DNA of 64,000 nucleotides, from assembly GCA_016790075.1 (NCBI GenBank), contig JAEUPP010000005.1, positions 100,054 through 164,053 on the forward strand, given 5' to 3'. This stretch comes from Rhodanobacteraceae bacterium (GTDB lineage Bacteria > Pseudomonadota > Gammaproteobacteria > Xanthomonadales > Rhodanobacteraceae). Each line of letters begins with the position of its first letter. The stretch's first letter is position 1. A program made the translations under genes and the position numbers. This document shows, in pieces, positions 10,741-49,190 of this stretch. The notes beneath the pieces were generated by a model. That model worked only from the letters and a program-made list of their open reading frames with translations, made no database searches and was not told where the DNA came from.

Positions 10741-10772
10741 AAAAAGGGCCCCGGCGCAACGGGGCCCTTTTT
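10741..10772. terminator. Bidirectional rho-independent terminator between convergent genes
   Basis: Perfect 12-bp inverted repeat AAAAAGGGCCCC / GGGGCCCTTTTT (10741-10752 and 10761-10772) with loop GGCGCAAC. Because the arms carry A and T runs, it can end transcription of the membrane protein gene on the plus strand and of the cold-shock gene on the minus strand. Confidence 0.9.
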
Positions 10773-10795
10773 CACTTGTGCAACGGCTGCAACGA

Positions 10796-11002: not shown

Positions 11003-11075
11003 GACTTCCCCTCGAACGTTGCTGGACGAATGCGCGGCAGACTTCTCCCCCGAGTCGGCGCGCCGCGCGTGTACG

Positions 11076-11081
11076 AGTATA
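11076..11081 (-). promoter_or_regulatory. Possible -10 element of the cold-shock gene
   Basis: On the minus strand TATACT (plus 11076-11081) is five of six with the sigma-70 -10 consensus and lies 74 bases before the cold-shock start codon. No good -35 hexamer is found at 16-18 bases. It would give a leader of roughly 65-70 bases. Weak call. Confidence 0.3.
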
Positions 11082-11210
11082 CGCAGCACGGTCAAAAGTG
11101 CGAGAGCATTAGCCGGGCGGCATGTGAGCCGTGTCACGCGACAAGCAACAGAAATCCGACAGCCACAACGCTGAACGCACGACTGGGCCGAGTGGCCCGC
11201 GTCGGCGCCT

Positions 11211-11954: not shown

Positions 11955-11964
11955 GGTTCGCTCC

Positions 11965-12504: not shown

Positions 12505-12512
12505 GGCTACAC

Positions 12513-13520: not shown

Positions 13521-14032
13521 CAGTCCCGTCCTTCCCGTTCGCTCGCCGACCAGCCTGAGTACGGATAGGCGATCAGATTGAGATTGTAGTAGCGCGGCAA
13601 ATGACTGACCTCACGCCCCAGCCAGTCAGGCCGTTCAAATACCTGGTCAACTGCGTCGAGTTCCAGCTCGGCGACGACCAGGCCATCGTTCGCGCCTAAG
13701 AATTCGTCGATCTCGAACTCATGGTCGGCGCATGCAACGTAATGGCGAATCTTTTCAACTACGCCGTCGCAAAGCTTGGCCAGCATGGCCTCCGCATCGG
13801 CCAGAGGTACTTCGTATTCGTATTCCTGGCGCGACGGGCCCAGCGTCGACGATTTGATATTGAGCCAGGCCTGCTCGCCGCCTATGCGTACCCGCACCGA
13901 GCTGCGCGCAGCCCCGCTGGTAACTGCGGCAGCACTCACCAGATAACCCTGTACCAGCCGCTGTGAGCGTGATACCTGCCCGCGCCAGGCATCCGAAGCC
14001 AGCAGGAATTTACGTTCGATTTCGATGCCCAC
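13520..14032 (-). CDS. CYTH-domain protein (triphosphate tunnel metalloenzyme family)
   Basis: 170 residues starting GIEIERKFLL, the signature metal-binding ExExK motif of CYTH enzymes. Further tunnel residues appear in RLVQGYL, SVRVRIGGEQAWLNIK, RQEYEYEVPLADAEAML, KIRHYV, EIDEFLGANDGLVVAELEL and FERPDWLGREVS. Bacterial members act as inorganic triphosphatases or thiamine-triphosphatase-like enzymes. The GTG at 14032 is preceded seven bases upstream by AAGGGAG, which decides the start: an in-frame ATG at 14053 would put that Shine-Dalgarno inside the coding sequence. Overlaps nagZ by one base. Confidence 0.85.
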   Translation of the reverse strand: MGIEIERKFLLASDAWRGQVSRSQRLVQGYLVSAAAVTSGAARSSVRVRIGGEQAWLNIKSSTLGPSRQEYEYEVPLADAEAMLAKLCDGVVEKIRHYVACADHEFEIDEFLGANDGLVVAELELDAVDQVFERPDWLGREVSHLPRYYNLNLIAYPYSGWSASEREGRD

Positions 14033-14079
14033 GCATATCTCCCTTGGCGCCAACGCGGCCTGCAGCGCCGTGACCCTGT

Positions 14080-15384
14080 TCAGCGCTCAAACAGCGCTAT
14101 CGATTCGACATGCGCCGTGTGCGGGAACATGTCCATGACTCCGGCCGCCCTGAGCTTGAAACCATGCTTTTGCACCAGGATGCCCGCATCGCGCGCAAGC
14201 GAAGCCGGGTGGCAGGATACGTAGACGATGCGCCCCGTGTCCTTCCTTGGCAGATAGTCGAATACGGCCTGGGCACCGGAACGCGGCGGATCGAGCAGGA
14301 TCTTGTCATAGGACTGGCGCGCCCACGGCGTATCGCGCTGGTCATCGAGCAGGTTTGCGACATGGTATTCAACATTGCCTATGCCATTGCGCCCCGCATT
14401 CTGCCTGGCGCGCTCGACCAGACCGTGCTCGCCTTCGACCCCGACCACCTGAGCACAGCGGCGCGCGAGCGGAAATGTGAAATTACCGAGGCCGCAAAAC
14501 AGATCGAGCACACGGTCAGTCGGTAGCGGATCGAGCAAGGCCAGAGCATGCGCAATCATGGCCTCGTTCATGGCCGAATTGACCTGGATAAAATCCAGCG
14601 GCCGGAATTCGAGCTCGACCTCTGCAGCCGCGATGCGGAACGCCAGCCGCGGCTGTTCCGGCCACAGCGGATGCACGCTGTCATTGCCGCCGGGCTGCAG
14701 ATAGATCGCAAGCCCTTGCGCCTGGCCAAAGGCGACCAGGGCAGCGCGATCGGCATCGGACAAGGGCTGCAGATGGCGGAAGATCAGCGCCGTCGTATCG
14801 TCGCCGGCCGCGATCTCGATCTGCGGGATCTCGCGCACGCAGGCCAGCTGACCTACCAATTCGGCAATTGCCGCGATGCGCTCGCCGACCGCGGGCGCGA
14901 GCACCTCACAGCGCGACAGATCCGCGACGTAGCGGCCGTTATCCTCGCGAAAGCCAACCAGAGCCTTGCCCTTCTTGTCGACATACTTGACCGACAGCCG
15001 GCCCTTGCGGCGATAGCCCCAGACGGCCGAGGTCAGCGGTGCCAGCCAATGCCGGGGCTCAACATGGCCGATACGCTCGAAGTTCTCGGCCAGCACACGC
15101 TGTTTCGCGGCGATCTGCGCATCCGGCGCCAGATGCTGCAGGGCGCAACCGCCACAGACACCAAAATGCGGGCAGCGAGGCTGGACGCGATCAGCGGAGG
15201 CGACCAGCACCTGCTCGACCTGTGCCTCGTCATAGTGTCTATGCCGCTGTGCTATCCGTGCGAGCACCCGCTCGCCCGCCAGCGCGCCGCGCACGAAGAC
15301 AGCCTTGCCCTCATGCCGCGCTACGCCACGGCCGTCATGCGAGAGGTCAGTGATATCGAGTTCGAGCGTAGTAGGTGCTTTCAT
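14080..15384 (-). CDS. rlmD: 23S rRNA (uracil-1939-C5)-methyltransferase RlmD
   Basis: 434-residue SAM-dependent rRNA methyltransferase. N-terminal TRAM domain (about 6-62), then the [4Fe-4S] ligands C71, C77, C80 (CPHFGVCGGC) and C159 (RCEVL), and a C-terminal methyltransferase with VLDLFCGLGNF (SAM), LLDPPRSGA and the catalytic Cys at about 391 in YVSCHPASLARD. This combination is diagnostic for RlmD (RumA). The ATG is only six bases from a perfect 12-bp hairpin that occupies the place of a ribosome-binding site. It points away from the YdbL/YdbH pair but lies on the same strand. Confidence 0.96.
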   Translation of the reverse strand: MKAPTTLELDITDLSHDGRGVARHEGKAVFVRGALAGERVLARIAQRHRHYDEAQVEQVLVASADRVQPRCPHFGVCGGCALQHLAPDAQIAAKQRVLAENFERIGHVEPRHWLAPLTSAVWGYRRKGRLSVKYVDKKGKALVGFREDNGRYVADLSRCEVLAPAVGERIAAIAELVGQLACVREIPQIEIAAGDDTTALIFRHLQPLSDADRAALVAFGQAQGLAIYLQPGGNDSVHPLWPEQPRLAFRIAAAEVELEFRPLDFIQVNSAMNEAMIAHALALLDPLPTDRVLDLFCGLGNFTFPLARRCAQVVGVEGEHGLVERARQNAGRNGIGNVEYHVANLLDDQRDTPWARQSYDKILLDPPRSGAQAVFDYLPRKDTGRIVYVSCHPASLARDAGILVQKHGFKLRAAGVMDMFPHTAHVESIALFER

Positions 15385-15390
15385 GACGAC

Positions 15391-15420
15391 AGCGCCCGGG
15401 ATGACGACATCCCGGGCGCT
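15391..15420 (-). promoter_or_regulatory. Perfect hairpin between ydbL and rlmD, adjoining the rlmD start codon
   Basis: 12-bp perfect inverted repeat AGCGCCCGGGAT / ATCCCGGGCGCT (15391-15402, 15409-15420), loop GACGAC. It has no T run on the minus strand, and its 3' foot is six bases from the rlmD ATG. It may act as a terminator for ydbL, as a structure limiting rlmD translation, or both. Confidence 0.5.
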
Positions 15421-15452
15421 TGTGCTCCACAGTTATCGGGCGGATGGACGCG

Positions 15453-16031
15453 TCAGCGCTGCTTCCAGGCGCCCGCGGCGTCCTGATAATACCAGCCGGC
15501 ACGCGCCTGCTCGATCCATTGCGCCGCGAATGTGCTCTGAATCTGCGCCTCCCATTCCGGATGACCGTTGGCGCGCGCGATCTCGGCATAGACCGCCTTG
15601 CGGTCGCGATTCTCATCGGCGACGGACTGATTCAAGCCGCTGCGTTCGGCCAGGGGCACGGCTGAAGCATCACGCACGGCAACCAGTCCATCCCGCGTAA
15701 GGCCTATGCTGCCGGCGGCGAGCGCCTTGGTCAGCACACTGTCGAAACGCTGTTTCATGCGCGCCTGGATTTCCCGTACCGCGGTGGTCTGGATGGTGAG
15801 ATCCGGATCAGCCGCCTGCGCGCTACCGATAAAGAAGTCCAGCAGGCTAGCCTGGGGCGGGCGCGGCGGCGGCTTGACCTCCGCATCCTTGGCCGCCTCG
15901 CCAATAACGTTGCCGATGAATTCTTCAGCGGCTTTCTCCGCCGCCGCTGCGGGGAAATACACATTGATCGTGACGCAGGCCGACAGCAGCACCAGCGCAA
16001 GGCTCAGCAGCATCGTACGAATCGGGCGCAT
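15453..16031 (-). CDS. ydbL: YdbL-like DUF1318 lipoprotein
   Basis: 192 residues. A lipobox LLSAC gives an acylated Cys19, directly followed by VTINVYFPAAAAEKAAEEF, then a Pro-rich linker and a second hydrophobic patch. The C-terminal DUF1318 domain (about 95-192) has GLTRDGLVAVRDASAVPLAE, NQSVADENRDRKAVYAEIARANG and the closing GWYYQDAAGAWKQR. In E. coli YdbL is a periplasmic partner of YdbH and YnbE in phospholipid transport between membranes. Here the protein is itself a lipoprotein and no separate ynbE gene exists: only 14 bases separate it from ydbH. It may combine the YnbE and YdbL roles (inference). Confidence 0.8.
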   Translation of the reverse strand: MRPIRTMLLSLALVLLSACVTINVYFPAAAAEKAAEEFIGNVIGEAAKDAEVKPPPRPPQASLLDFFIGSAQAADPDLTIQTTAVREIQARMKQRFDSVLTKALAAGSIGLTRDGLVAVRDASAVPLAERSGLNQSVADENRDRKAVYAEIARANGHPEWEAQIQSTFAAQWIEQARAGWYYQDAAGAWKQR

Positions 16032-16045
16032 GAGAGACTCCTGGA

Positions 16046-18055
16046 TCAGTTGATAACGGGTTTGGTGCCGCGCGCCGCGGCCTGGAGACGTTCAACAAGA
16101 ATGGCCCAGTCGACTTCGGACTGATGGCCGACAATCTGGATGCGCGGCAGGCCGCGACCTTCGACCAGAGTGTAGCGGGACGCATCGGCATCGAGTCCAC
16201 GCATGTGACAGACCGCATTGTGCAAGCGGCAGCCTATGCCCAGGCGGGAATAACCGAAGGTGTCGAATAACTTGAGTACGCTCGCCTGCAGCCCTGCGGC
16301 GATGCCGCCACCACCGACCGAGGAAATGGTGGTGACCGCGCGCTGGCTGATGCGCCCCCCGCCCAGGGCCTGCAACTGTGCATCAAAGGCCACCGGCTGC
16401 CAGTCGACCAGGCGCAGTGCACGCACATAACCGGACAACCGCCCCGTGATACCGCCTATGTCGAAAGTGCCGGTCAGCAGGCTCAGATCCAGCCCCTCGA
16501 ACGCGATATCAGCCGATAGCGAGGGCGATATGCCGAACGGCCGCTCCAGCGCGAGGCCGGTTACATTCAAGCTGCCGCCGAACACATCGAGCAGGAGGCC
16601 TCCGGCCAGATCGAGGCGCTCGTCGGCATAACGCAGTTCCGGCACTGCGCCACCCAGGGTGCCGCCAAAACGCGGCCAGCCCAACGCCTTGCTCAAGGCC
16701 GACAATTCCACGTCATGCACAGCGAGGCCAGCCTGGATGCGCTCGCCGCGGACCGCGGCCGGATGCAGGCGCAGCCGCAGAAGGTCCAGGCTACCCCCGA
16801 GCAGCGGGATCCGCGCTGGTTCACGCAAGGCCAGTACCCCGTCGCGACTCTGCCAGCGCAACTGCGCCGCACCCAGCGGCAACGCATACAGTTGCGCCGA
16901 CTTCCAGTGCAACTCGGTCGCGGCGAGTTCGCCATCGCGCTCCCAGCTAAGCTCGCCGGCGAGTGCATCGATGCCGAGGCCACGCTGCTTTTCAGCGACA
17001 TCCACGGCATCCAGTGTGACGCTCGCATCCTGCAGCCCTAGCCCATCGGCAGTGCCGCGCAGACTGATGCGGCCGCGGCTCTGCAGTTCGCTCCAACCGG
17101 CGAGTCCGAGCACGCTGGTGAGGTAGCGCTGCTGCGCCTGCGGCAGCTGGACCGTGGCGGAGTCCAGGCTCAACGCACGCACGGGGTTCGCGGCGGCCGG
17201 TGCGATCAGCGCCGATGCGGTCAGATTGAGCACGCCCGGATCGTCGTAGACGAAATCGCTGATGCGATAGGCATCGTGGTCTGGCGCAAGGCCAAACTCG
17301 AGCCGCGTACCGTGGTCCGCGAACGCCACGTGAAATGCCCCGGCCAGCACTTCACCACTGCCGATCTGGCCACGGTGGCGCAACTGCCAGGGCCTGCCCT
17401 CGCGCCATTCCAGCTTGCCCGCAAGGTTGACCTGCGCCGCGGCCCGGCTGCCATCGGCAGTATCGAAACCAAAATCGCGCAGGCTATAGTCAATTTCCGT
17501 TCGGCCGGCACCATCCGCCGGCAGTTCCGCATCCGCCGCGAGCTGCCCGTCCACCCGGGTCAGGGCGGGCCAGGAGCGGCGCAGCAACTCCGACAGCCAA
17601 GCCAGCGGCAATTGCCGCAGGCGCACCTGCCACACGCGGCCGCCCCGCCCCTCGCGATGGTTTAGGCTCAGGCGCGCCGGCGCGCGATTGATCTCAAGAC
17701 TCAATTGCCCCTGCTCAAGCTGGGCGACGAAACCGGCTTCGAGCGGCGCCGCCTCCCGGGCGGTTTTCAGCCGTGCCCGGCCGGCGCAACGCCAGACCGC
17801 CGCATCCGGTTCAAGCGGACACTGCACGTCAAGATCGAACAGTTGCAGATCGGCGTCAGGCCAGTTGAGCCGCGCTGCCAGCAGGCGCAAATCCTGCCCG
17901 CCCGCACGCGTCGGCACTAATTCCACTTGTATCTTTTCTACGCTTACGCCGCCGCTGCGCAGCGTATCGACGGTGGCGCGCAGGCCGGCGGCGCGAACCT
18001 GGGTGCCGATACCAAGCACGAGCACAATGCAGATAATGCGAAACACGAATTGCAT
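16046..18055 (-). CDS. ydbH: YdbH-like AsmA/TamB-superfamily intermembrane transport protein (DUF2950-type 'dicarboxylate transport' domain)
   Basis: 669 residues with an N-terminal signal anchor (MQFVFRIICIVLVLGIGTQVRA) and then a long, almost purely beta-strand repeat protein (LRLLAARLNWPDADLQLFDLDVQC and many similar blocks). The C-terminal part GGGRISQRAVTTISSVGGGG through YSRLGIGCRLHNAVCHMRG is characteristic of YdbH. E. coli YdbH is longer (about 880) and forms a hydrophobic groove that carries phospholipids to the outer membrane. The start at 18055 sets the anchor at the N-terminus; the frame stays open to 18400 but overlaps the divergent response regulator. Adjacent ydbL supports the assignment. 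Confidence 0.8.
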   Translation of the reverse strand: MQFVFRIICIVLVLGIGTQVRAAGLRATVDTLRSGGVSVEKIQVELVPTRAGGQDLRLLAARLNWPDADLQLFDLDVQCPLEPDAAVWRCAGRARLKTAREAAPLEAGFVAQLEQGQLSLEINRAPARLSLNHREGRGGRVWQVRLRQLPLAWLSELLRRSWPALTRVDGQLAADAELPADGAGRTEIDYSLRDFGFDTADGSRAAAQVNLAGKLEWREGRPWQLRHRGQIGSGEVLAGAFHVAFADHGTRLEFGLAPDHDAYRISDFVYDDPGVLNLTASALIAPAAANPVRALSLDSATVQLPQAQQRYLTSVLGLAGWSELQSRGRISLRGTADGLGLQDASVTLDAVDVAEKQRGLGIDALAGELSWERDGELAATELHWKSAQLYALPLGAAQLRWQSRDGVLALREPARIPLLGGSLDLLRLRLHPAAVRGERIQAGLAVHDVELSALSKALGWPRFGGTLGGAVPELRYADERLDLAGGLLLDVFGGSLNVTGLALERPFGISPSLSADIAFEGLDLSLLTGTFDIGGITGRLSGYVRALRLVDWQPVAFDAQLQALGGGRISQRAVTTISSVGGGGIAAGLQASVLKLFDTFGYSRLGIGCRLHNAVCHMRGLDADASRYTLVEGRGLPRIQIVGHQSEVDWAILVERLQAAARGTKPVIN

Positions 18056-38080: not shown

Positions 38081-39132
38081 GGCGTACGCCGTAGCTGATA
38101 GCGCGCGACAGCGCGGTTGTGTGCGTCCAGATCCGCGCTGAACTCATGCGAGCCATCGCCGCGCGCAACGAAATACAGCGCATTGCCCGCAGCCGGCTGT
38201 ACGGCAGCACGCAGCGCGGCTACGCCAGGCAATGCAATAGGCGTCGGCGGCAGACCGGTACGCGTATAGGTGTTGTACGGCGTGTCGGTGTCGAGGTCGC
38301 GGCGGCGCAGATTGCCATCGAAGCCGGCGCCCAGGCCGTAAATTACGGTGGGATCGGTCTGCAGTTTCATGCCCAGGCGCAGGCGGCGCGCGAACACCCC
38401 GGCAATCAACGGACGTTCGTCACCTTTGCCGGTCTCGCGCTCAACGATGGAAGCGAGAATCAGGGCCTGGTACGGCGAGTCCAGCGGCAGGTCGGCGGAA
38501 CGTGCCGCCCAGGACTGGTCAAGGGCGCGGCGCAGGGCCTGATACGCCTGGCGCAGCAGATCCATATCGCTGTCGCCGCGTGTCCAGAAATAGGTTTCCG
38601 GCAGGAAGCGGCCTTCGGGATGTTCCGCCGCCGCACCGAGCTCGCGCATGATCTCCGGATCCGAGCGCGCACTCAGTGTCTGCTGCAAACCGGCTTCCCG
38701 CGCCAACGCCAGGCGCAACTGACGAAATGTCCAGCCTTCCACAATGGTAAAACGATGCTTGATCACGTCGCCGGCGGCCATGCGTTGCAGCAGTACCCGC
38801 GGCGTAGTGCCGCGCGGCACAGCGTATTCCCCGGCATGCAGCCGTGCCGCTACCCCCATGCGCTGCGCCAATGCACGCCAGTACAGATCCGGTGCTTCGC
38901 TATAGCCCGCCGTACGGATCTGGCGGCGTATCGCTGCAAATGAGGCGCCAGACGGCACGTCGAGCACGGCCTCGTCGCCGATCTGCAGCGGCGTATCGGC
39001 AAAACGGCTCCAGTCGTGCCAGAGCAAACCGCCGCCGAGCGCAGCAGCAACCAGCAGGAAGAGCAGGAAAACGCGCAGCGCACGGCCGTGGCTTGTCTCT
39101 GCTTGCTTTCGCTTGTGCTGTCGCTCAGCCAT
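38077..39132 (-). CDS. mltG: Endolytic murein transglycosylase MltG
   Basis: 351 residues. One N-terminal membrane helix (about 19-38, VFLLFLLVAAALGGGLLW), a LysM-like region, then the YceG domain with the catalytic Glu at about 231 in LILASIVERETGKGDERPLIAGVFARRLRLGMKLQTDPTVIYGLG. It cuts nascent glycan strands and is a likely terminator of peptidoglycan polymerisation. The start at 39132 overlaps the pabC stop (39125) by eight bases; the upstream open frame is an antisense artefact. E. coli MltG is 340 residues. Confidence 0.95.
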   Translation of the reverse strand: MAERQHKRKQAETSHGRALRVFLLFLLVAAALGGGLLWHDWSRFADTPLQIGDEAVLDVPSGASFAAIRRQIRTAGYSEAPDLYWRALAQRMGVAARLHAGEYAVPRGTTPRVLLQRMAAGDVIKHRFTIVEGWTFRQLRLALAREAGLQQTLSARSDPEIMRELGAAAEHPEGRFLPETYFWTRGDSDMDLLRQAYQALRRALDQSWAARSADLPLDSPYQALILASIVERETGKGDERPLIAGVFARRLRLGMKLQTDPTVIYGLGAGFDGNLRRRDLDTDTPYNTYTRTGLPPTPIALPGVAALRAAVQPAAGNALYFVARGDGSHEFSADLDAHNRAVARYQLRRTP

Positions 39133-39949
39133 GCACCGGCTCCAGCAAGCCCAGTCCACGCCATTCGTCCTGCAACGCACGCGTGACAGGGCCAGGTGTG
39201 AACGCCTGCGCATCGATACGGCTAACCGGCAGAATGCCGCGCAGGCTGGAGGTCAGAAACACTTCATCGGCTTGCATGACTTCGTTCCAGGTTAGCCGCA
39301 CTATCTTCACGTCACGGCGCGCCATCACTTCGGCGCGTGCGACACCAGCCACACCGCACTCCTCAAGCGCCGGAGTGAGCAGCTGCGTATTGCACACGAT
39401 AAACAGATTCGCCGCTGTTGCGCTGATCACGTTGCCCGCCGCATCTGCCAGCAGGCCTTCCGCAACAGCGGGATCCTGCCACTCCGCACGGGCCAGTACT
39501 TGCTCGAGACGATTCAGATGCTTGATGCCGGCCAAACGTGGCTGGGCCGCGAGGCGCAAACTGCAGCAGCGTATCGGGATTCCCCGCCGGTACCAATCGG
39601 CAGGGAGGGTCGGTGCTGCGCTCGCCGTCACTATCCAGGTCGACCGCGGCGCTTGCGGCAATGCATAACCGCGTTCACCAACACCACGCGTCAGCGTGAT
39701 GCGCACGGCCGCGCGCGCGAGGCCGGCACAGGCGCGTTGCGCTGTGGCCGCGAGCTGGTCGCGCGGCGGCGCGCAGATACCTAGTCGCGCCGCATCCGCT
39801 TCCAGCCGCGTGCAATGGCGCGACCACAGCGGCGCGACACCGTCGACAAACAAGACGGTCTCGAACAGGCCATCACCGTAGAGCAGCCCCCGGTCAAGCG
39901 TAGCCACGCCGAGGCCGGGTTGTCCGTCGACAAAACTGTGTTCGCTCAT
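39125..39949 (-). CDS. pabC: Aminodeoxychorismate lyase (PabC)
   Basis: 274-residue PLP fold-type IV enzyme that converts 4-amino-4-deoxychorismate to p-aminobenzoate and pyruvate. The N-terminal LDRGLLYGDGLFETVLF is typical. The PLP Lys is 143 in AGIKHLNRLEQVLARAEW; EGLLADAAGNVISATAANLFIV is the phosphate-binding block. It overlaps pabB (ATGA) and mltG. Being paired with pabB and mltG argues for PabC rather than a D-amino acid transaminase of the same fold. Confidence 0.93.
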   Translation of the reverse strand: MSEHSFVDGQPGLGVATLDRGLLYGDGLFETVLFVDGVAPLWSRHCTRLEADAARLGICAPPRDQLAATAQRACAGLARAAVRITLTRGVGERGYALPQAPRSTWIVTASAAPTLPADWYRRGIPIRCCSLRLAAQPRLAGIKHLNRLEQVLARAEWQDPAVAEGLLADAAGNVISATAANLFIVCNTQLLTPALEECGVAGVARAEVMARRDVKIVRLTWNEVMQADEVFLTSSLRGILPVSRIDAQAFTPGPVTRALQDEWRGLGLLEPVHG

Positions 39950-41340
39950 GCATCCAACCCTAACGCACGCAACAGGCCTCGCGCCTTGTGCCGCGTTTCG
40001 TCGAGTTCACGTGAGGCCACCGAGTCCACGACAATGCCGGCACCGGCGCGCCAGCGCAGCAGATCGCCGCTGCGGCTGATCGTGCGGATCAGGATGTTGA
40101 GATCGAGGTCACCATCCCGATTCAGATAGCCCAGCGCGCCGGTATAGGCGCCGCGGCCGCGGCCTTCGAGTTCAGCGATGATCTGCATGCAACGTATCTT
40201 GGGGCAGCCGGTAATGGTGCCGCCGGGAAACACCGCGCGGATCACCTCGCCCGGCGTCACGTCGCGACGCAGGATCGCGCGCACGTTGGAGACGATATGG
40301 TGCACATGGGCATAGGTCTCCACGCTCATCAGTTCGTCGACCACGACACTGCCGGGCTGCGCAACCCGGCCGAGATCGTTGCGCTCGAGATCAATCAGCA
40401 TCACATGTTCAGCGCGCTCTTTCGGATGGCCTACGAGTTCGCGAATTCGCGCCGCATCGTCGTCGCCGGGAAAACGCGGTCGCGTGCCCGCAATCGGGCG
40501 GGTTTGTACACGATCGCCCTGCACCTGAACCAGGCGCTCCGGCGAGGAGGAGATCACGGCCCAGTCCGGACCCTGGAACAAGCCAGCGAATGGCGCGGGA
40601 TTCGCCGCCCGCAGATTGGCGTAGAGCTGTGCCGATGGCACCGACTCAGCCAGACTGGCACGCCACTCGCGCGACAGGTTGACCTGGAAAATATCACCGG
40701 CGCGCAAGTAGTCGTGAATCCGGCCCACGCCGTCGAGGAAATCCTGCGCTGCATCTTCATCAATGGCATCAAGCGCCAGCGGACGCGGCGTGGGAGCCTG
40801 CGCAGCGGCAAGATCGGCTTCAACCAAGGCCAGCAGCCCAGCATATTCAGGTTCAGCAACCAGCAGCGTACGGCCGCGGGAGTGATCGACGAGCACACCG
40901 ACCGGGCAGCGCAGCGCCATCGCACGCGGTAGCGACGGATCGGGAGCCGCAGGCAGCTGCAATACGGGCTCAACGCTCGCCGCGAGTTCGTAGGCGAGGA
41001 ACAATGCCCAGCCGCCACGGAATGGCAACACCTCGGCTTCCTCGCCGCGCACACAGCGTAGCGTGCGCCATTGGTAATCCAGCAGGCCGAGGAAATCGTC
41101 ACCCAGATCCGCCCCCTGCGCGTCGGTGACCCGGCCCGTGGCCGTCAGCGTCAAGCTGTCCTGCGGGAACGCCGGCAGCACGTCCCAGCTGGACGTTCCG
41201 CCGCCTCCCGTGGCAGCGCTCTGCAGCAGGCAGGGATAACGCGCCGGCTGTGCGGCGGCGAGCGCAAGCAGGTCATGACGTTGCGGCAACTCGCGCAGGA
41301 CGAGGGATGGCCGTAACGGCACAGGCACAAGAACGGACAC
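39946..41340 (-). CDS. pabB: Aminodeoxychorismate synthase component I (PabB), PIAGT class
   Basis: 464 residues, chorismate-binding fold. Conserved blocks: AGDIFQVNLSREW, SSSPERLVQV, RPIAGTRPR, HVMLIDLERNDLGRV, YAHVHHIVSNV, FPGGTITGCPKIR and RGAYTGALGYL. It aminates chorismate for folate synthesis. The active-site motif is PIAGT (282-286) where E. coli PabB has PIKGT with a catalytic Lys. A PabB subclass with PIAGT is known, including Stenotrophomonas maltophilia, and uses a non-covalent route with two ammonia equivalents. Neighbouring pabC and mltG favour PabB over TrpE. No pabA is in the window. Confidence 0.93.
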   Translation of the reverse strand: MSVLVPVPLRPSLVLRELPQRHDLLALAAAQPARYPCLLQSAATGGGGTSSWDVLPAFPQDSLTLTATGRVTDAQGADLGDDFLGLLDYQWRTLRCVRGEEAEVLPFRGGWALFLAYELAASVEPVLQLPAAPDPSLPRAMALRCPVGVLVDHSRGRTLLVAEPEYAGLLALVEADLAAAQAPTPRPLALDAIDEDAAQDFLDGVGRIHDYLRAGDIFQVNLSREWRASLAESVPSAQLYANLRAANPAPFAGLFQGPDWAVISSSPERLVQVQGDRVQTRPIAGTRPRFPGDDDAARIRELVGHPKERAEHVMLIDLERNDLGRVAQPGSVVVDELMSVETYAHVHHIVSNVRAILRRDVTPGEVIRAVFPGGTITGCPKIRCMQIIAELEGRGRGAYTGALGYLNRDGDLDLNILIRTISRSGDLLRWRAGAGIVVDSVASRELDETRHKARGLLRALGLDA

Positions 41341-41539
41341 GGCTCAGGGCAGTCCCGCAGGACCAGGCAAGGGATCAAACACGCAGCCGCCGGCGTAGTA
41401 GCGCTCGGACGCACCGCAGCGCCGCCATGCGTCGGCACCCGTCAAACGCGGATGCGGCGAGCTTGCCGCTGAAACGGCCTGTACGCGGAGACACCTCATC
41501 GGCTTGTTCAAAAAGTAGATCCCATGCCCGCGCGAGTGC

Positions 41540-41559
41540 GGGCGCGCAGTAACGCGCCC
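41540..41559 (-). terminator. Possible terminator or hairpin after fabF
   Basis: 7-bp stem GGGCGCG / CGCGCCC with a 6-base loop, 9 bases past the fabF stop. A second, competing stem (GCCCGC/GCGGGC) lies next to it. On the minus strand TTTTT appears only about 25 bases further on. The role is uncertain. Confidence 0.35.
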
Positions 41560-41567
41560 TGGTGTGC

Positions 41568-42806
41568 TCAGATGCGGCGGAATACGAGCGTGCCGTTTGT
41601 GCCGCCGAAACCGAACGAGTTCGACAGCACGACGTCAATCTTCGCCTGGCGCGCAGTGTGCGGCACATAGTCGAGGTCGCAACCCTCGCCGGGCTCATCG
41701 AGATTGATCGTCGGCGGCACCACACCGTCGCGCAGCGCGAGCACCGAGAAGATCGCTTCGACACCGCCTGCCGCCCCAAGCAGATGACCGGTCATCGACT
41801 TTGTCGATGAGACCATGACCTTGCTCGCATGGCTGCCCAGCACGCTCTTCATGCCCTGGGTTTCGGCGAAATCGCCAGCTGGCGTCGAGGTCCCGTGCGC
41901 ATTGATGTAGTCAACATCCGCCGCATTCAGGCCAGCATCCTTGAGCGCATTGGCCATGCAACGCGCCGCACCTTCGCCGCTCTCGCTAGGCGAGGTCATG
42001 TGGTAGGCGTCGCCGCTCATGCCAAAGCCGGCGAGCTCGGCATAGATACGCGCGCCACGAGCCCTGGCGTGTTCATAGTCTTCAAGAACCAGCACGCCAG
42101 CACCGTCAGACAACACAAAACCGTCGCGGTCCTTGTCCCAGGGGCGGCTGGCCTTGGTCGGTTCGTTGTTGCGCGTGGACAGCGCACGTGCCGAGCAGAA
42201 ACCGCCTATGGCTGTCCCGGTCGTGGAGTATTCAGCACCGCCTGCGATCATCACGTCGGCATCGCCATAGGCAATCATGCGCGCGGCAATACCGATATTG
42301 TGCGCCGCCGTTGTGCAGGCCGTAACAACGGAAATGTTCGGCCCCTTGACGCCAGTAATGATGGAAACATTACCCGAGATCATGTTGATGATCGTCGACG
42401 GCACGAAGAACGGCGAGATCTTGCGCGGTCCACCTTCAGCCAATACCTGACTGGTGCGTTCTATGGTCGCAATGCCGCCGATGCCGGCACCGATGCTGAC
42501 CCCGATGCGTTCTGCATTGGCTTCGGTAACTTCAAGTCCGGAATCGGTGAGCGCACTCAGCGAGGCGGCGATGCCGTAATGGATGAACGCATCCATCTTC
42601 TTTACATCTTTGGGCGTGATCCACTGTGCCGGATCGAAATTGCGGATCTCGCCAGCGATGCGCGTGGAGTAAGCGCTCGCGTCGAAGTGCGTAATGGGAC
42701 CGATACCACTGACACCACCGACGATGTTGTTCCAGGCAGTGGTGAGATCATTGCCGACCGGACTCAATATGCCCATGCCGGTGATGACGACGCGACGCTT
42801 GCTCAT
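41568..42806 (-). CDS. fabF: 3-oxoacyl-ACP synthase II (FabF)
   Basis: 412 residues. Catalytic Cys in [14 protein letters not shown], the two His in [13 protein letters not shown] and [17 protein letters not shown], and the C-terminal [17 protein letters not shown]. It extends acyl-ACP with malonyl-ACP. The Cys context is ACTTAA instead of the more common ACATSA, which does not affect the catalytic residue. The start at 42806 gives [12 protein letters not shown], the usual N-terminus. It follows acpP with 180 bases between. Confidence 0.97.
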
Positions 42807-42986
42807 ACAAATGCTTCCAGACTGAAGTAGCGACACAAGCGGGCACTGGAACGCCGTATCGCCAGCATGCTCATGGCGGCAGAACGGTCGCTCAGGATAG
42901 GCTGCCCGGGAACGCCGTAGGTACGACGTGCCGAAAACGCGAACTGCGCCATGCGGCGCAGCTCGTGTGCAGCTTGGGGATCAGGA

Positions 42987-43226
42987 TCAGGGCTTGACGT
43001 GGGCCTTGATGTAGTCGACCGCCTGTTGCACGGTCGTGATCTTTTCGGCTTCCTCGTCCGGGATTTCGCACTCGAATTCTTCCTCGAGCGCCATCACCAG
43101 TTCCACCGTATCGAGCGAGTCGGCGCCGAGATCGTCCACGAAGGAAGCGTTCTGGGTGACTTCGTCTTCCTTCACGCCGAGTTGTTCAACGACGATCTTC
43201 TTGACGCGTTCTTCGATGCTGCTCAT
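42987..43226 (-). CDS. acpP: Acyl carrier protein
   Basis: 79 residues. The phosphopantetheine Ser sits in [18 protein letters not shown]. The whole sequence from [18 protein letters not shown] through [26 protein letters not shown] is standard. It is strongly acidic. The ATG at 43226 has GGAGG nine bases upstream, one of the best ribosome-binding sites in the window, as expected for an abundant protein. It lies between fabG and fabF. Confidence 0.98.
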
Positions 43227-43506
43227 TGTGCAAATTCCTCCCGAAGGGAATAGTTCAAAAATCGAAAACACACTTGCTGTCATCCGCGGCGGCATACACC
43301 TGCGCCATATCCCTGCGGGCAGTACCACCTCTGGGGAGTCTAGTACGGTGCTTGGGCAGTCCAGCGCACGGTTACGGCATGCGACGAACTGCGGAAGCGC
43401 AACACCAGGCCTCCGCAACACAAAGCCCGGCGATTGTAGAGGAATCGGATCGGACCAACCAGATACAGGCGTTTGAGTCAGCGCGAGTCTGCAAACCGCT
43501 GATTTC

Positions 43507-44250
43507 TCAGGGCATGTACATACCGCCGTTGACATGCAGCGTTTCGCCGGTAATCCAGGCCGCCGCCGGCGATGCGAGGAAGGCAACCGCCTGCGCGATG
43601 TCATCCGGCTGACCGAGACGGCCTAGCGCGATCTGTGCCAGCATCGCGTCCTTCTGCTCCTGCGGCAGCGCCGCGGTCATGTCGGTTTCAACAAAACCTG
43701 GCGCCACGACGTTGACCGTGATGCCGCGCGAACCGATCTCGCGCGCGAGCGACTTCGAGAAGGCGATGACGCCAGCCTTGGCCGCCGCGTAGTTGGCCTG
43801 CCCCGGATTGCCGGTCAGACCAATAACCGAGGCGATGCTGATAATGCGGCCCTTGCGCGCCTTCATCATGCCACGCATCACCGCCTTGGACAGGCGGTAG
43901 ACCGAACTGAGATTGGTATCGAGGATGATCTGCCAGTCCTCGTCTTTCATGCGCATCAGCAGCTGGTCACGCGTAATCCCGGCATTGTTGACGAGGATCG
44001 ACACGCTGCCGAAATCCTTGCCGATCGCCTCGATCAGCGCATCGACCGAAGCAGCGTCGGTCACGTTCAGCACGCGACCGTAACCACCCAGCGGCGCCAG
44101 CGCCTGTCCGATCGCCGCAGCTCCGGACTCACTCGTTGCTGTACCGATCACGGTCGCACCGGCCTCGGCGAGGCGCCGCGCGATAGCCGCACCAATACCG
44201 CGACTGGCGCCGGTAACGAGCGCTATTTCGCCTTGAATATTTCCACTCAT
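43507..44250 (-). CDS. fabG: 3-oxoacyl-ACP reductase (FabG)
   Basis: 247-residue short-chain dehydrogenase. NADP motif [23 protein letters not shown], catalytic [23 protein letters not shown] (Ser, Tyr, Lys), then [11 protein letters not shown] and the C-terminal [14 protein letters not shown]. It reduces 3-oxoacyl-ACP. The ATG at 44250 is used; a GTG directly before it (44253) is possible. In most gammaproteobacteria fabD lies just upstream; here only a relic is found. Confidence 0.96.
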
Positions 44251-44293
44251 CACAAAGTCCCGTTATGGAATTTTCGCAAACCCCGCAACCGAC

Positions 44294-44437
44294 TCAGGCA
44301 GTCTTGCCTGGGCCGCATACCGGCGTGTGCAGCGCGCCGCCGGCATCGTGCACATAGCTCGCCGCGGGTTCGACCAGCATACCGACCGATCGCGAGCCCA
44401 GTCCCGGCAATACGAAGGCAAGTTGCGGATGCGTCAT
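44294..44437 (-). pseudogene. fabD: Degraded relic of fabD (malonyl-CoA:ACP transacylase)
   Basis: A 47-codon frame between fabH and fabG, exactly where fabD normally lies, starts MTHPQLAFVLPGLGSRSVGM. The expected FabD N-terminus is MTxxxLAFVFPGQGSQSVGM, so nearly every residue fits but both Gln of the GQGSQ motif are replaced (Leu, Arg). Only about 25 residues of this region remain; the GHSLGE active-site Ser and His are missing. The end, VCGPGKTA, resembles the FabD C-terminal [EV]xGPGKVL block, suggesting a large internal deletion. A functional FabD is essential and must be encoded elsewhere, unless the deletion is an assembly fault. Confidence 0.75.
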
Positions 44438-44562
44438 GTAGGGAATGATTTCTGCAATCCATCAGAGTGCACACCAGGCTTGTCGCAGCTGCCGGGAAAC
44501 GGAAGGACAGGCCGTAGCGCAGGAAGCCCAAGCCACTGGCATGGGATCCGCCCGTCATCAGG

Positions 44563-45534
44563 TCAGTAGCGCACCAGCGCCGAGCCCCAGGTAAAACCGC
44601 CGCCGAACGCTTCCATCAGCAGAAGCTGGCCGCGCTGCACGAGACCCGAACGCACCGCGTAATCGAGCGCCAGCGGCACCGAACCCGAGGACGTATTGCC
44701 ATGCTTGTCGACCGTGACGATGACCTGCTCCATCGGCATTTCTAGGCGCTTGGCCGTAGCCTGGATAATGCGCAAGTTCGCCTGGTGCGGAATCAGCCAG
44801 TCGATCGAGGACTTCTCCAGGCCATTCGCATTCAGCGTTTCCTCGACCACCATGTCGAGGGTCTTGACCGCAACCTTGAATACCTCGTTGCCGGTCATCA
44901 GCACACGCACGCCGGCATTGGGTTCGTCTGGCTTGAAACCCGCGGACACACCAACCGGGTTCCACAGCAACTCCTTGTGGGCGCCATCCGCATGCAGGTG
45001 GGTCGAAATGACGCCGGGAGCATTGTCGGCGGTCAACACAACCGCACCAGCGCCGTCACCAAACAGGACGCAGGTAGCGCGGTCGGTCCAGTCGAGCATG
45101 CGCGTCAGGGTTTCCGCGCCAACGACCAGCGCCTTCTTCACAGCCCCCGAGCGTACGAACTTGTCGGCGACGCTGAGCGCGTAGAGGAACCCTGAACAGG
45201 CGGCATTGACATCAAAGGCGGCACAGCCGTTCGCGCCGAGGCGGTGCTGCAGCAGGCAGGCGGTGGACGGAAAGATCAGGTCGGGCGTCGTAGTGCCGAC
45301 AACGATAAGCCCGATGTCTCTGACATCGACATTTGCCGCATCGAGTGCTGCGCGCGCCGCGTGTTCAGCGAGATCCGATGTGGTCTGGCCTTCTGCGGCG
45401 ACATGGCGCTGGCGGATACCGGTGCGGGAGTGGATCCACTCATCGGTCGTATCGACGAGCTTTTCCAGATCGGCATTGGTCAGGATCTTATCCGGCAGGT
45501 AGCTGCCAGTGCCTGCGATACGGGAATGAATCAG
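44563..45534 (-). CDS. fabH: 3-oxoacyl-ACP synthase III (FabH), probable CTG start
   Basis: 323 residues from 45534. Catalytic Cys in [14 protein letters not shown], His in [13 protein letters not shown], Asn in [15 protein letters not shown]. It condenses acetyl-CoA with malonyl-ACP to start fatty acid synthesis. The conserved N-terminus [13 protein letters not shown] is preceded by CTG, with AGGGGGAAG at the right distance. No ATG or GTG is available; a TTG at 45570 adds 12 residues but has no good ribosome-binding site. CTG (or the next codon, ATT) is therefore the likely start. Upstream lies rpmF with no plsX between them. Confidence 0.94.
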
Positions 45535-45594
45535 AGCGGCTTCCCCCTGGTTCTGGTCGTCGACTCCCAATGGAGTCGCGCGCCCGGCAAACGA

Positions 45595-45618
45595 ATTCCG
45601 GCGCCTGCGCGCCGGAAT
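45595..45618 (-). terminator. Hairpin between rpmF and fabH (terminator or attenuator)
   Basis: Perfect 10-bp arms ATTCCGGCGC / GCGCCGGAAT with a 4-base loop. On the minus strand it is followed by TCGTTTGCC, a weak U tract. It occupies the place where plsX would normally be and may lower read-through from rpmF into fabH. Confidence 0.5.
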
Positions 45619-45658
45619 GTCGTAGCAACGTCAATCGGCTGGCTGGCAGCCGTGACGA

Positions 45659-45853
45659 TCAGTCTTCCGTATGAACCGGGGTCTTGCTGGGGATCACCTG
45701 ACGGCCGCGGTAGTAGCCGTCCTTCGTGATGTGGTGACGGACATGAACTTCACCCGTCGTCGGATCGGTGGCCAGCTGCTTGGCCGTCAGTGCGTCGTGC
45801 GAACGGCGCATGCCGCGGGTCGACGGGGTCTTGCGGGATTTCTGAACTGCCAT
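45659..45853 (-). CDS. rpmF: 50S ribosomal protein L32
   Basis: 64 residues beginning [22 protein letters not shown], the standard L32 N-terminus. The centre has [22 protein letters not shown]. The zinc-binding Cys pairs of many L32 proteins are absent, as in the Cys-free gammaproteobacterial form. The ATG at 45853 is preceded by GAGAGTT. It pairs with the yceD gene, which ends upstream on the same strand, the usual yceD-rpmF arrangement. Confidence 0.97.
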
Positions 45854-45964
45854 GGGAACTCTCCAAAAACACTTGTGTTCGCTTGCCGTAGGCGGTGACG
45901 AACCCATCAGTTACGCGGCCTGCGCCGCACCTGCGCCAATTGCGTGACGCCACCGCCGCTGCTT

Positions 45965-46477
45965 CTATCCTTTCTTCAGGCCACCCAGCGCGGCGAACGG
46001 ATTCGGCCGCTGCGGTGCCTCAGCCTGCGCCGGATCGGTCGACCAGGTAAAGTCGGACTCCTCCAGCCCCGGTTTGACCGGAATCAAGGGCAAGGCCAGC
46101 AGCAACTCGTCCTCGATCACTTCTGCAAGTCTGATTTCCGCCGAATCGAGCAGCAAAGGCTCATAACCGGGCGGCAGTCCTGCTTCGTCCTCTTCCCGCG
46201 TCATCAAACCCAGCCGGGTATCAATAGCTACGGGCATTGCAAACAGTTCCAGCGTGCGCTGGCAGGTCAGGACCAGCTCCACCTGCGCCTGCAACGCGAG
46301 ATAAGCCTGGCCGAGTTCATCGCGGCCGAACTCAATATCGTACGTGACCGTTCCATCCGGTGCAGCCAGCGCATCGGTGAGACGCGTTAGCCGGGCAACG
46401 GGCAGGCGACCATTGAACGAACGCCGCGCCGAAACCATGCGCCAGGCGTCCACTATCTCGGGGAAAGGCGCAGACAT
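45965..46477 (-). CDS. yceD: YceD (DUF177) family protein
   Basis: 170 residues. Conserved features are FNGRLPVARLTRL near the N-terminus, VELVLTCQRTLELFAMPV in the middle and EIRLAEVIEDELLLALPLIPV. Members of DUF177 are almost always next to rpmF and in some bacteria and plants affect 23S rRNA accumulation. The single Cys in the middle block replaces the usual CxRC pair. The C-terminus RPNPFAALGGLKK is the typical end of gammaproteobacterial YceD. Confidence 0.9.
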   Translation of the reverse strand: MSAPFPEIVDAWRMVSARRSFNGRLPVARLTRLTDALAAPDGTVTYDIEFGRDELGQAYLALQAQVELVLTCQRTLELFAMPVAIDTRLGLMTREEDEAGLPPGYEPLLLDSAEIRLAEVIEDELLLALPLIPVKPGLEESDFTWSTDPAQAEAPQRPNPFAALGGLKKG

Positions 46478-46596
46478 GGGCGCGCGATGGTAGTTACGGC
46501 GCCCCTGGAAGTCAAACGAAACCTGCGTGTGCTCCGCTACTTAGGCCCTGCCACAGCGATTTACGCCCGGGCGCGCTTGGGGCAGACTCGACGCCG

Positions 46597-47022
46597 ATGA
46601 ATTATCTGATCGCGCCCATTGTCCTGGTACTGCTGGGGCTATCGTTCTTTTTCGTGCGAGAACGTCGCTGGCGCCGACGCGAGCAGTGCATACGGACCTT
46701 GCTCGACGAAGCCGACGCACTTGAGGCCAGCCTGCTGACTTGCCGCGAACGCATGCAAACCCTGCGCGGCATGCTGACCGACCTGCCGGAAGAAATGACC
46801 GGAGATGCCGATGAGGCGCTTGCTGCCGATGACAAGGTACAGGCTGCGCTGCGTGACCTGCTGCAACACCGGCTGTGGATCAAGCAACATGCTGTCGACG
46901 CCGGGCAGCCCGAACTCGATGCGGCAATTGGCGCGCTGCGCCAGTCACGCCGTTCCATGGAGCAGCAGCTACGCCACCTCGACGACATAACGGCTGCATT
47001 GCGCGAGGCAAGGGCGCGATGA
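46597..47022 (+). CDS. Single-pass membrane protein with coiled coil, function unknown
   Basis: 141 residues. An N-terminal membrane helix (about 4-20, LIAPIVLVLLGLSFFFV) is followed by a basic patch (RERRWRRRE) that would face the cytoplasm. The rest is helical with heptad-like spacing (LDEADALEASLLTCRERMQTLRGML, RSMEQQLRHLDDITAAL). It overlaps the maf start by four bases (ATGA), so it is co-translated with Maf. No family recognised; it resembles small anchors of unknown partner proteins. Confidence 0.65.
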   Translation: MNYLIAPIVLVLLGLSFFFVRERRWRRREQCIRTLLDEADALEASLLTCRERMQTLRGMLTDLPEEMTGDADEALAADDKVQAALRDLLQHRLWIKQHAVDAGQPELDAAIGALRQSRRSMEQQLRHLDDITAALREARAR

Positions 47023-47627
47023 CCGCCGCCGTCAAGCTGGACGCCGTAGATTTGGTACTGGGCTCGACCTCGCGCTATCGCGCCGAATTACTGCGTCGCC
47101 TTACACCGGTATTTCGCCAGGCCGCACCGGAAGTCGACGAGACGCCGTTGCCGGGCGAAGCTGCACCCGCACTGGCGTTGAGGCTGGCCCAAGCCAAGGC
47201 CTGTGCGGTCGCGCAGCGCTTTCCGGGCGCTGTCGTGATCGGCTCGGATCAGGTCGCCGAACTCGACGGCATGGCACTGGGAAAACCCGGCGACAGCGCC
47301 CGCGCTCAAGCACAACTGATCCGCTGCAGCGGAAGGGCGGTGCATTTCCATACCGGGCTATGCCTCGCCGATGCGCGCAGCGCCGGTATTCAGCTTTACA
47401 CCGAAACCGACCTGACCACGGTGCAATTCCGCGAACTCGCTGCGGAAGAGATCAGCCGGTACATCGCGCGCGAGCAACCGCTGGACTGCGCCGGCAGTTT
47501 CAAGTCCGAGGGTCTGGGCATCGCCTTGTTCGAGCGCATTACCAGCGATGATCCCAGCGCCCTGATCGGCCTGCCGCTGATAGCGCTGTGCCGCCTGCTG
47601 CGGCTGGCGGGGATCGTGGTCCTGTAG
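47019..47627 (+). CDS. maf: Maf family nucleotide pyrophosphatase (YceF-like)
   Basis: 202 residues. Motifs: LVLGSTSRYRAELLRRL (S-R-Y/R), ETPLPGE, VVIGSDQVAELDG with catalytic Asp, LGKPGD, FHTGLCLAD and ISRYIAREQPLDCAGSFKSEGLGIALFERITSDDPSALIGLPL. YceF-type Maf enzymes prefer 7-methyl-GTP and lie next to yceD-rpmF in E. coli, which is also true here although on opposite strands. Its 3' half runs antisense to the C-terminal extension of the GT39 gene. Confidence 0.92.
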   Translation: MTAAVKLDAVDLVLGSTSRYRAELLRRLTPVFRQAAPEVDETPLPGEAAPALALRLAQAKACAVAQRFPGAVVIGSDQVAELDGMALGKPGDSARAQAQLIRCSGRAVHFHTGLCLADARSAGIQLYTETDLTTVQFRELAAEEISRYIAREQPLDCAGSFKSEGLGIALFERITSDDPSALIGLPLIALCRLLRLAGIVVL

Positions 47628-49190
47628 CACCTGCGTGTCACATTCCGGCGTGACTCCCGGTTCCGGCACACGGCCGCGATACCAGGCGAATACCTTGCGA
47701 CCGCCGAACAGCGACATTTCATCGAGCAACTGCAAATCAACCACGCGCCGGCACAGTGACTGTTGCCAGGCATCGCGCTCGCCGACGCTACCGGTCGTAC
47801 GCTCGACCACCAGCAGCAGGTTGCGTTGTGCATGGTGCAGGCGCAGGCCGCGCTCGTCGCGCTGCCATAACGCCAGCTGCGGTGCGCGACCATGTTTGAC
47901 ATTGCGCGGGTGATCCAGCGAATAGACACGCAGGGCCGCATCGAGCTGAAAATCGAGTTCGGCGCCGAGCAGAAAATTGTCGGCAACCAGTACGGGGTTG
48001 TGCTCACGTTCGCGCTCAAGCCAGGTGCGCGTGCGTGCTGCAACCTCTTCCCACCCGACAAAGTTGTACGGAAACGCCTTGTGAGCCGCCAACCGTTGCG
48101 CCCAAGCAGGATCCGCTGCCGCTGCGAGGTAGCCGAGTGCGCCGGCGCACCCCAGGGCGGCAAGCGTATAAGAAGCGACGATGTACGGCCGCGAACCCAC
48201 TCCCTCGGCCAGCAGCCGCGCCAGCGCGACCAGCCCGGCCAGATAAGCCGGCAGCGGCCAATGCACACGAAAGCGCAGCTCGTCACCGACCAGTCCGAAT
48301 ACGAAGTAGCCGACAGCGACACCGAGCCCGGACCAGGCCAGCACCGCCGCCGCCAGGGAAACCTTGCGTGCGCACCAGTTGCGCCACAAAGCCCAGAGCA
48401 GCAGCCCATAGAGCAAAGGCGTGACGACCAGAGCCTGTTCCAGTGGCTGCGCCAGTCCCCCGGAATGCAAACGCCAAGGGTGGCGCTCGACGAGCTGAAA
48501 ACTCAGTCCCGACCAATCGTGAGCCCGGTTGAACAGCAGCAGCGGCAGCAGCCCCAACGCGCCGACCGCCAACGCGCCCCAGAATCCGCGTTGCCGCCAC
48601 CAGTGGCGGGCACCACGCGTGCAGAGCAGCAGACCTAACCCACCGGGTAACAGCATCGCTGCGCGGTAATGCGACAGCCACGCCAGCGCAAGTCCGCTGC
48701 CGAGCCAGGCATAACCACGCGCCTCGCCACGCGCGATGCGCAACAACCCGGCAAGCATCGCGAGTGCCGCAACCGTCAAGGGCACGTCCGGCATGGCCAT
48801 CACGCCTAGCGTGCCGCCCAGCGGCAACAGCATCCAGGCTATCCCGATCCACGACGCTGCTCCTGCATCCGACTCACGTCGTGCGATCTGCCACAGACCT
48901 AGCGGCAACGCCGCCCCCAGCAGCAGGAACAGACTGCGCATGCCGATCAGGGAATGGCCAAACAGCGTTTCCCCCAGATGGATCAGCACAGCTGTCGCCG
49001 GCGGCACGTCGGTAAACGACCAGGCCAGTGCGCGGCTTTCCTGCCAATAAAACGCTTCATCACCAAACGGCGCCAGCGTTGCGGCGATGACAAGCTTGAT
49101 CGACTGCAACACGAACCATAAAACACAAAACGTGGTCAGCGCATATCGCGCCGAGCGCACGGCGCTGGCTACACTCACTTCACGGTGCAC
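47358..49190 (-). CDS. GT39-type membrane glycosyltransferase (ArnT-like)
   Basis: 610 residues with about ten membrane helices. The first periplasmic loop has FGDEAFYWQESRALAWSFTDVPPATAVLIHLGETLFG, containing the acidic DEAxYW motif of the GT39/GT83 family, and AMPDVPLTV in the next. These enzymes move sugars from polyprenyl-phosphate carriers to lipid A or proteins; the substrate is unknown. A soluble C-terminal domain follows (about 365-520). The last 90 residues are Gln/Ala-rich, antisense to maf, and may not be functional. The GTG at 49190 has AAAGGA upstream. Divergent from moxR. Confidence 0.82.
   Translation of the reverse strand: MHREVSVASAVRSARYALTTFCVLWFVLQSIKLVIAATLAPFGDEAFYWQESRALAWSFTDVPPATAVLIHLGETLFGHSLIGMRSLFLLLGAALPLGLWQIARRESDAGAASWIGIAWMLLPLGGTLGVMAMPDVPLTVAALAMLAGLLRIARGEARGYAWLGSGLALAWLSHYRAAMLLPGGLGLLLCTRGARHWWRQRGFWGALAVGALGLLPLLLFNRAHDWSGLSFQLVERHPWRLHSGGLAQPLEQALVVTPLLYGLLLWALWRNWCARKVSLAAAVLAWSGLGVAVGYFVFGLVGDELRFRVHWPLPAYLAGLVALARLLAEGVGSRPYIVASYTLAALGCAGALGYLAAAADPAWAQRLAAHKAFPYNFVGWEEVAARTRTWLEREREHNPVLVADNFLLGAELDFQLDAALRVYSLDHPRNVKHGRAPQLALWQRDERGLRLHHAQRNLLLVVERTTGSVGERDAWQQSLCRRVVDLQLLDEMSLFGGRKVFAWYRGRVPEPGVTPECDTQVLQDHDPRQPQQAAQRYQRQADQGAGIIAGNALEQGDAQTLGLETAGAVQRLLARDVPADLFRSEFAELHRGQVGFGVKLNTGAARIGEA

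Follow-up and report, generated by a model that had tools for sequence, protein, structure and literature searches.

The fatty acid synthesis (fab) cluster of a Rhodanobacteraceae bacterium (G000; 5.62 Mb in 83 contigs, completeness rated 95.65%) raises the question of which enzyme performs malonyl-CoA:ACP transacylation in a genome whose fabH and fabG are separated by a mere scrap of fabD. In the window, by which we mean the whole 64,000-nucleotide stretch analyzed (G000:C67:100054-164053), the minus-strand gene order is yceD, rpmF, fabH, a 309-bp gap, fabG, acpP, fabF, and pabB. The genes flanking the gap are intact: fabH (44563-45570, minus strand) is 86.8 to 92.7% identical to that of the six congeners in which it could be read, the end of the gene being all that is seen in the congener G002, and fabG (43507-44253, minus strand) is 84.8 to 91.5% identical in seven congeners. 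The acpP (42987-43226) and fabF (41568-42836) genes, also on the minus strand, are likewise intact, and the AcpP protein has 100% identity in G001, G002, G003, G005, G006, and G007 (aligned part) and 97.4% in G004. An Rfam search of window positions 39000-47000 and a phage search of positions 40000-48000 returned no match.

The initial annotation, made from the DNA alone, had described the gap as a fabD relic that has lost both Gln residues of GQGSQ and the GHSLGE site and retains a GPGK remnant, and closer reading bears this out. The 309-bp intercistronic stretch (44254-44562, minus strand) contains a 47-codon open reading frame (44294-44437, minus strand) whose first ~26 residues correspond to the FabD N terminus, with both Gln of GQGSQ replaced, followed by a short C-terminal-like stretch that ends in CGPGK, after which the frame is lost and a stop is reached. 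The GHSLGE region is absent from the entire 309 bp and the ORF has no catalytic Ser/His region, so that, taking a canonical FabD as a protein of ~300 residues with GQGSQ, the GHSLGE catalytic Ser, and the catalytic His, it is not one. A tblastn search with the 47 residues matched the FabD N terminus in 10 of 27 loci (E <= 1e-4), of which 18 have a canonical FabD N terminus (L016 and L018 being the same gene); the best match was 67.9% over 28 residues (E 4.7e-8). Local alignment of the 309-bp DNA to the fabH-fabG regions of G001 and G006 scored 64.4 and 65.1, beating all 200 shuffles in each case (maxima 51.5 and 51.6), while the score against G003 (52.2) lay below the maximum of 200 base shuffles (52.5). 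The tblastn matches and the alignments above shuffles for two of three relatives therefore confirm, at the level of sequence, that this stretch holds a fabD remnant. No repeats able to account for the deletion are reported inside it.

Comparison of the locus among close relatives, which the initial annotation had proposed, covered a genus sample of eight genomes (G000-G007). Five congeners (G001, G003, G004, G006, and G007) have an intact fabD between fabH and fabG, which lie 992 to 1,182 bp apart including the fabH stop codon, and in G005 the gene is split across two contig ends that together cover all of it; canonical FabD is thus present in all six congeners other than G002. In the metagenome-derived assembly of G002, the fabH-fabG gap is 304 bp, lies on one contig, and holds fabD scraps unlike those of G000, namely the first FabD residues, a TQPALL-like stretch, and the C terminus. 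Its DNA alignment beat all 200 shuffles against each of the three relatives tried. G000 and G002 are sisters in a tree of fabG, acpP, fabF, and pabB (support 98/99 from DNA and 91/94 from protein; G022, being partial, was left out). The lineage of G000 and its sister G002 appears from these data to have lost fabD, and the two remnants could stem from a single loss after which the gene eroded independently in each species or from two losses, the breakpoints being compatible with both.

The G002 locus also bears on two simpler explanations. The initial annotation had allowed that the assembly might have dropped about 0.9 kb here, and a canonical fabD could sit in the missing part of a genome that is 95.65% complete in 83 contigs; in three genomes of the family that have no full match (G070, G081, and G243; looser search), FabD pieces are indeed found at the very start or end of contigs. 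In G000, however, a single contig carries fabH, the mutated remnant, and fabG in succession, and a single contig of G002 does likewise, though other pieces of fabD survive there. Because two species carry different scraps at one locus, an assembly error is unlikely, and we consider it very improbable that an intact fabD exists and was lost in assembly or binning. The 47-codon ORF might instead be a new small functional gene, since it is open, or malonyl-ACP might be made otherwise, ACP self-malonylation being one possible source. The remnant of G002 keeps different FabD pieces, and no ORF matching that of G000 was seen in the three forward frames of its gap, which speaks against a new gene; we give explanations of this kind hardly any credence.

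Across the family, a search with the FabD of G001 (E <= 1e-75) detected a canonical FabD in 224 of 233 genomes and, when restricted to the 192 genomes with completeness of 90% or more and contamination of 5% or less, in 189. The nine genomes without a match are G000, G002, G066, G070, G081, G155, G224, G243, and G254; the fabH-fabG remnant was seen in G000 and G002 only, the two of the nine that the remnant comparison took in. Apart from the contig-end pieces noted above, the looser search found nothing in G066 and G254, and the only matches in G155 and G224 were within large ORFs (50% and 32% identity). These last four genomes are uninformative because they comprise 510 to 690 contigs at 80 to 93% completeness. 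In a different family (f7) of the same order, G042, rated 94% complete in 210 contigs, has no match to the fabD model TIGR00128, which may reflect a gap or a further loss of fabD. The best FabD match of another genome, G054, covers model positions 2-219 only.

The absence of plsX next to fabH calls for a different explanation. The initial annotation had correctly seen a hairpin (45595-45618, a perfect 10-bp stem with a 4-nt loop) and no plsX between rpmF (45659-45853, minus strand) and fabH, and had taken this as part of a rearrangement of the cluster. PlsX (PF02504) was found in none of 37 family genomes sampled (G000-G036), compared with 8 of 24 genomes from other families of the order, and rpmF adjoins fabH without plsX in G001, G003, G004, G005, G006, and G007 as well. 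A loss peculiar to G000 is thus rejected, and the missing plsX looks, in this sample, like a family trait. PlsB is present in G000 (TIGR03703, 972 bits). In G054, a plsX in pieces with an in-frame TAG was noted at G054:C1:2288920-2289889.

The genome-wide search for another FabD that the initial annotation had also suggested turned up no canonical FabD in G000 and one candidate substitute. A PF00698 search identified six acyltransferases, five of them domains in ORFs of 2,012 to 4,326 aa and the sixth a 287-aa protein, AT53, the only stand-alone acyltransferase found. Its gene (G000:C53:21404-22264 = L017:9904-10767) lies on contig C53 and not between fabH and fabG. AT53 matches TIGR00128 over its whole length at 332.3 bits (cutoff, 260.9), so annotation by that model would name it FabD; because a trans-AT of the congener G004 also passes (327.6 bits), the model does not tell FabD from trans-AT. 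AT53 retains Gln9, Ser88, Arg113, His193, and Gln243, which include the active-site Ser and His and the Arg that binds malonate, the roles of the two Gln residues and of His193 being our assumption. The available part of PMC11775670 names Ser92 and Arg117 in E. coli FabD and states that the Arg distinguishes acyltransferases from acyl hydrolases.

Several lines of evidence address where AT53 came from. Among solved structures, the closest to it in sequence are 6mhp (299 bits; labeled simply malonyl CoA-ACP transacylase), PksE (284), PksC (284), and DisD (280 to 283), with E. coli FabD (1mla) at 190. In a tree of 44 rows, one per chosen locus from 82 tblastn pieces, AT53 falls within the trans-AT clade (100/99) and pairs with the G004 copy (98/95), while 16 canonical FabDs form a clade that excludes it (100/99); the tree left out duplicate loci, contig-cut pieces, second AT domains, and L006, and its group labels, including trans-AT, were assigned by similarity and context. 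A tree joining AT53 to the canonical FabDs was rejected (p-AU 4.7e-75, with a program warning of long branches among outgroup rows). AT53 is 75% identical to the G004 AT, 54% to that of an Oxalobacteraceae MAG, ~45 to 53% to other trans-ATs, and 35 to 38% to canonical FabDs. As judged from the tree and these identities, AT53 is a discrete acyltransferase of the trans-AT polyketide synthase (PKS) type, homologous to FabD. The tree and the 35 to 38% identity reject the idea that AT53 is a relocated canonical fabD; as AT53 is the sole stand-alone candidate found, the relocation that the initial annotation had offered lacks support. Its other proposal, replacement by an unrelated malonyltransferase with the old copy decaying, fares better: replacement is the best-supported account, although "unrelated" does not hold for a homolog of FabD.

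The surroundings of AT53 point to a polyketide origin. The gene lies in a 10.5-kb islet (L017, ~5380-15890) where G001, G006, and G002 have 130 to 230 bp, and the ORFs of the islet include a metallophosphoesterase (MPE), AT53, a PfaD-family enoyl reductase (ER) that deletions and frame changes have disrupted, an ACP, a PRK07103-type KS, and an NYN-domain gene. AT53, the ACP, and the KS (KS53; L017:12713-14029, plus strand) are all still open in G000. KS53 reads GASASG at the usual position of the active-site Cys, a feature shared with decarboxylating KSs of HMG-type cassettes. A transposase-like fragment, which we take to be of IS1595 type, lies in the left part of the islet (L017:6275-6742, minus strand).

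In G002, the AT53 ortholog is found as two pieces, both at contig ends, with 92% identity over residues 2-100 and 85% over residues 210-287; we infer that they are one gene, the middle third of which was not found in the G002 assembly. One of the two contigs also carries an AMP-binding gene and, by our reading, condensation-domain and PPTase genes. The other carries a PspC-domain gene, an open ER, an ACP (89% identical to that of G000), HMGS, and ECH. The PspC-domain gene (L067:248-763, plus strand) lies between the AT and the ER, and G000 retains a match to 21 of its residues at L017:10809-10871. A second trans-AT of G002 (G002:C638:1812-2654; L025) belongs to another subclade, is 48% identical to AT53, and adjoins an ACP, giving G002 two putative trans-ATs as candidates for the FabD role. 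The G004 copy of the AT lies ahead of KS-DH-KR-ACP modules that have RhiE-like linkers and in which no AT domain was found in the 7,045 aa searched. G004 also has tandem acyltransferase genes that follow an ACP and a KS (L028:8879-9718 and 10103-10960), one of them trans-AT-like (48% identical to AT53) and the other 23% identical.

This context in the three genomes argues that the AT came with a trans-AT cluster. Judged by its genes, the G000 islet is a fragment of a decayed polyketide cluster of which a fuller version is seen in G002. G000 appears to have lost the PKS modules of the cluster: no AT-less megasynthase ORF was found in this genome, at 95.65% completeness, and all six KS matches in ORFs of more than 2,000 aa share the ORF with an AT.

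Values of dN/dS are low in and around the islet. The dN/dS of AT53 is 0.068 (99 codons) and 0.123 (78 codons) against G002 and 0.096 against G004; the comparison genes gave 0.10 (ACP), 0.09 (MPE), and 0.09 (core fab and pabB genes), and the broken ER gave 0.15 pooled against G002, with 0.08, 0.14, and 0.35 in its three pieces. Selection specifically on AT53 was dropped as an argument, the neighbors and the broken ER being similarly low. KS53 adds nothing here, because the homologs with which it was compared are not clear orthologs. Because the broken ER still shows a low dN/dS, the cluster decayed recently, and because the MPE, ACP, and KS beside AT53 are also open, the intactness of AT53 is weak evidence.

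Taken together, these results lead us to propose that, after the loss of fabD, AT53 now performs malonyl-CoA:ACP transacylation for type II fatty acid synthesis, a reading to which we assign a probability of roughly 0.57. The proposal draws on the remnants in two species with no canonical FabD found in either, on the standing of AT53 as the sole stand-alone malonyl-type AT in G000, and on its trans-AT ancestry, its intact active-site residues, and the want of an AT-less megasynthase ORF for it to serve among those found in G000. AT53 would have arrived with a trans-AT polyketide/nonribosomal-peptide cluster and may have charged not only PKS carrier proteins but also AcpP with malonyl from CoA. 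AcpP loading in the common ancestor, at a time when the PKS was still active, would have made fabD redundant, and fabD would then have eroded separately in G000 and G002. The PKS would later have decayed in G000, where AT53 had to stay. The balance tips narrowly toward the broader statement that a trans-acting PKS AT has permanently displaced the essential FabD in two wild sister species, in one of them outliving its PKS, so that an enzyme of secondary metabolism would have become a housekeeping one.

The distribution of these genes gives mixed testimony. An AT of the AT53 subtype (>=75% identity) occurs in three of the eight genus genomes, G000, G002, and G004; two of the three have lost fabD, G004 carries both genes, and the five congeners without the subtype keep fabD. 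Possession of a trans-AT rarely goes with fabD loss, which counts against AT53: a trans-AT-like match (E <= 1e-60) occurs in 25 of the 233 family genomes, and 23 of these, including G003-G006, keep canonical FabD. Also on that side are the second trans-AT of G002 and a PfaA-type MAT in both fabD-less genomes.

The last of these could be the substitute itself. Contig C47 of G000 carries a PfaA/PfaD-type secondary lipid synthase (L096 = G000:C47:17001-35807; plus-strand ORFs 2532-4160, 4067-10102, and 10035-16235). It comprises a PfaA-type protein with KS, AT, ACP, and KR domains (TIGR02813, 1,334 bits; cutoff, 1,010) whose MAT domain scores 128 bits against PF00698, a PfaD-family ORF (TIGR02814, 621 bits), and an ORF with KS, AT, and FabA domains that we take to be PfaC-like. 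If this MAT domain did the work of FabD, AT53 would be a leftover. A precedent exists in Photobacterium profundum, which, according to the portion of PMC8174602 available to us, can do without fabD, the combined loss of fabD and pfaA being synthetically lethal; in the same account, a fabD deletion in E. coli was rescued by Pfa synthases at 22°C and not at 37°C. The authors of PMC8174602 suggest, in the same portion, that other bacteria carrying Pfa-type synthases might likewise not need fabD. The domain is indeed also present in the fabD-less G002 (82% identity). It occurs, however, in seven of the eight genus genomes (82 to 88% identity to the G000 domain; not found in G001), among them G003-G007 (86 to 88%), all five of which have fabD, and it offers no explanation for why the loss fell on just the pair of species that carry AT53 or an ortholog above 84% identity. 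We therefore regard the PfaA MAT as unlikely, though it is the main rival to AT53. AT53 and the PfaA MAT, both present in both fabD-less genomes, might also share the work with neither alone essential, an arrangement that we think quite improbable. Distribution patterns within the genus prove little, and no statistics apply, because there is only one evolutionary event; the pattern of AT53 subtype versus PfaA MAT modestly favors AT53 as the probable successor of FabD.

FabD is treated as essential and is regarded as an antibacterial target. A natural, fixed loss with a PKS AT in its place, if true, would mean that polyketide clusters can give enzymes to core metabolism and would make G000 and G002 a case of an essential enzyme displaced by a distant homolog from secondary metabolism. 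Recognition of AcpP by the AT would in that case be directly testable, AcpP being unchanged here, and annotation by fabD models such as TIGR00128 would mask a replacement of this kind. Resemblance to FabD alone is no proof of function, because, in the part of PMC8003026 seen, an AT-like domain resembling FabD failed to rescue a fabD mutant, a MAT domain of the same synthase serving as the positive control. No natural fabD loss with a PKS-AT substitute was found among the matches listed in the open-licence literature on fabD, trans-ATs, and Profftella, and the accessible text of two Profftella papers (PMC4651294 and PMC7643613) yielded no fabD replacement. What is already known, from the excerpts available, is FabD serving a PKS (PMC13096860) and the laboratory PfaA bypass (PMC8174602).

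Set beside known enzymes, AT53 is closest to discrete trans-ATs. PksC (5dz6) and DisD (3rgi) are among its nearest solved relatives by sequence, over the whole length, and it groups with trans-AT genes of its own bacterial family; PksC and DisD serve a PKS, in the case of DisD presumably a trans-AT PKS, whereas the search of G000 turned up no megasynthase ORF lacking an AT. Canonical FabDs of the same order (e.g., L018, L022, and L020) have the same active-site residues as AT53, and L018 passes TIGR00128 as AT53 does, but they form a separate clade and are encoded between fabH and fabG. In the barnesin system, as far as the available part of PMC13096860 goes, one malonyltransferase is common to fatty acid and polyketide synthesis, as proposed here, but in the opposite direction, with the fatty acid enzyme FabD acting as the trans-AT for a PKS; Streptomyces cases of FabD serving polyketides are cited in the same part. 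The closest functional parallel is the PfaA bypass of P. profundum SS9, where, by the available account in PMC8174602, type II fatty acid synthesis can proceed without fabD thanks to the malonyltransferase of a secondary lipid megasynthase; were the PfaA MAT the substitute here, G000 and G002 would be a natural case of what those authors suggested. In SS9, fabD was lost through laboratory selection or construction, and a domain of a megasynthase does the work, whereas the two species here, G000 and G002, appear to have lost it in nature, with a discrete enzyme of the trans-AT type as the best candidate.
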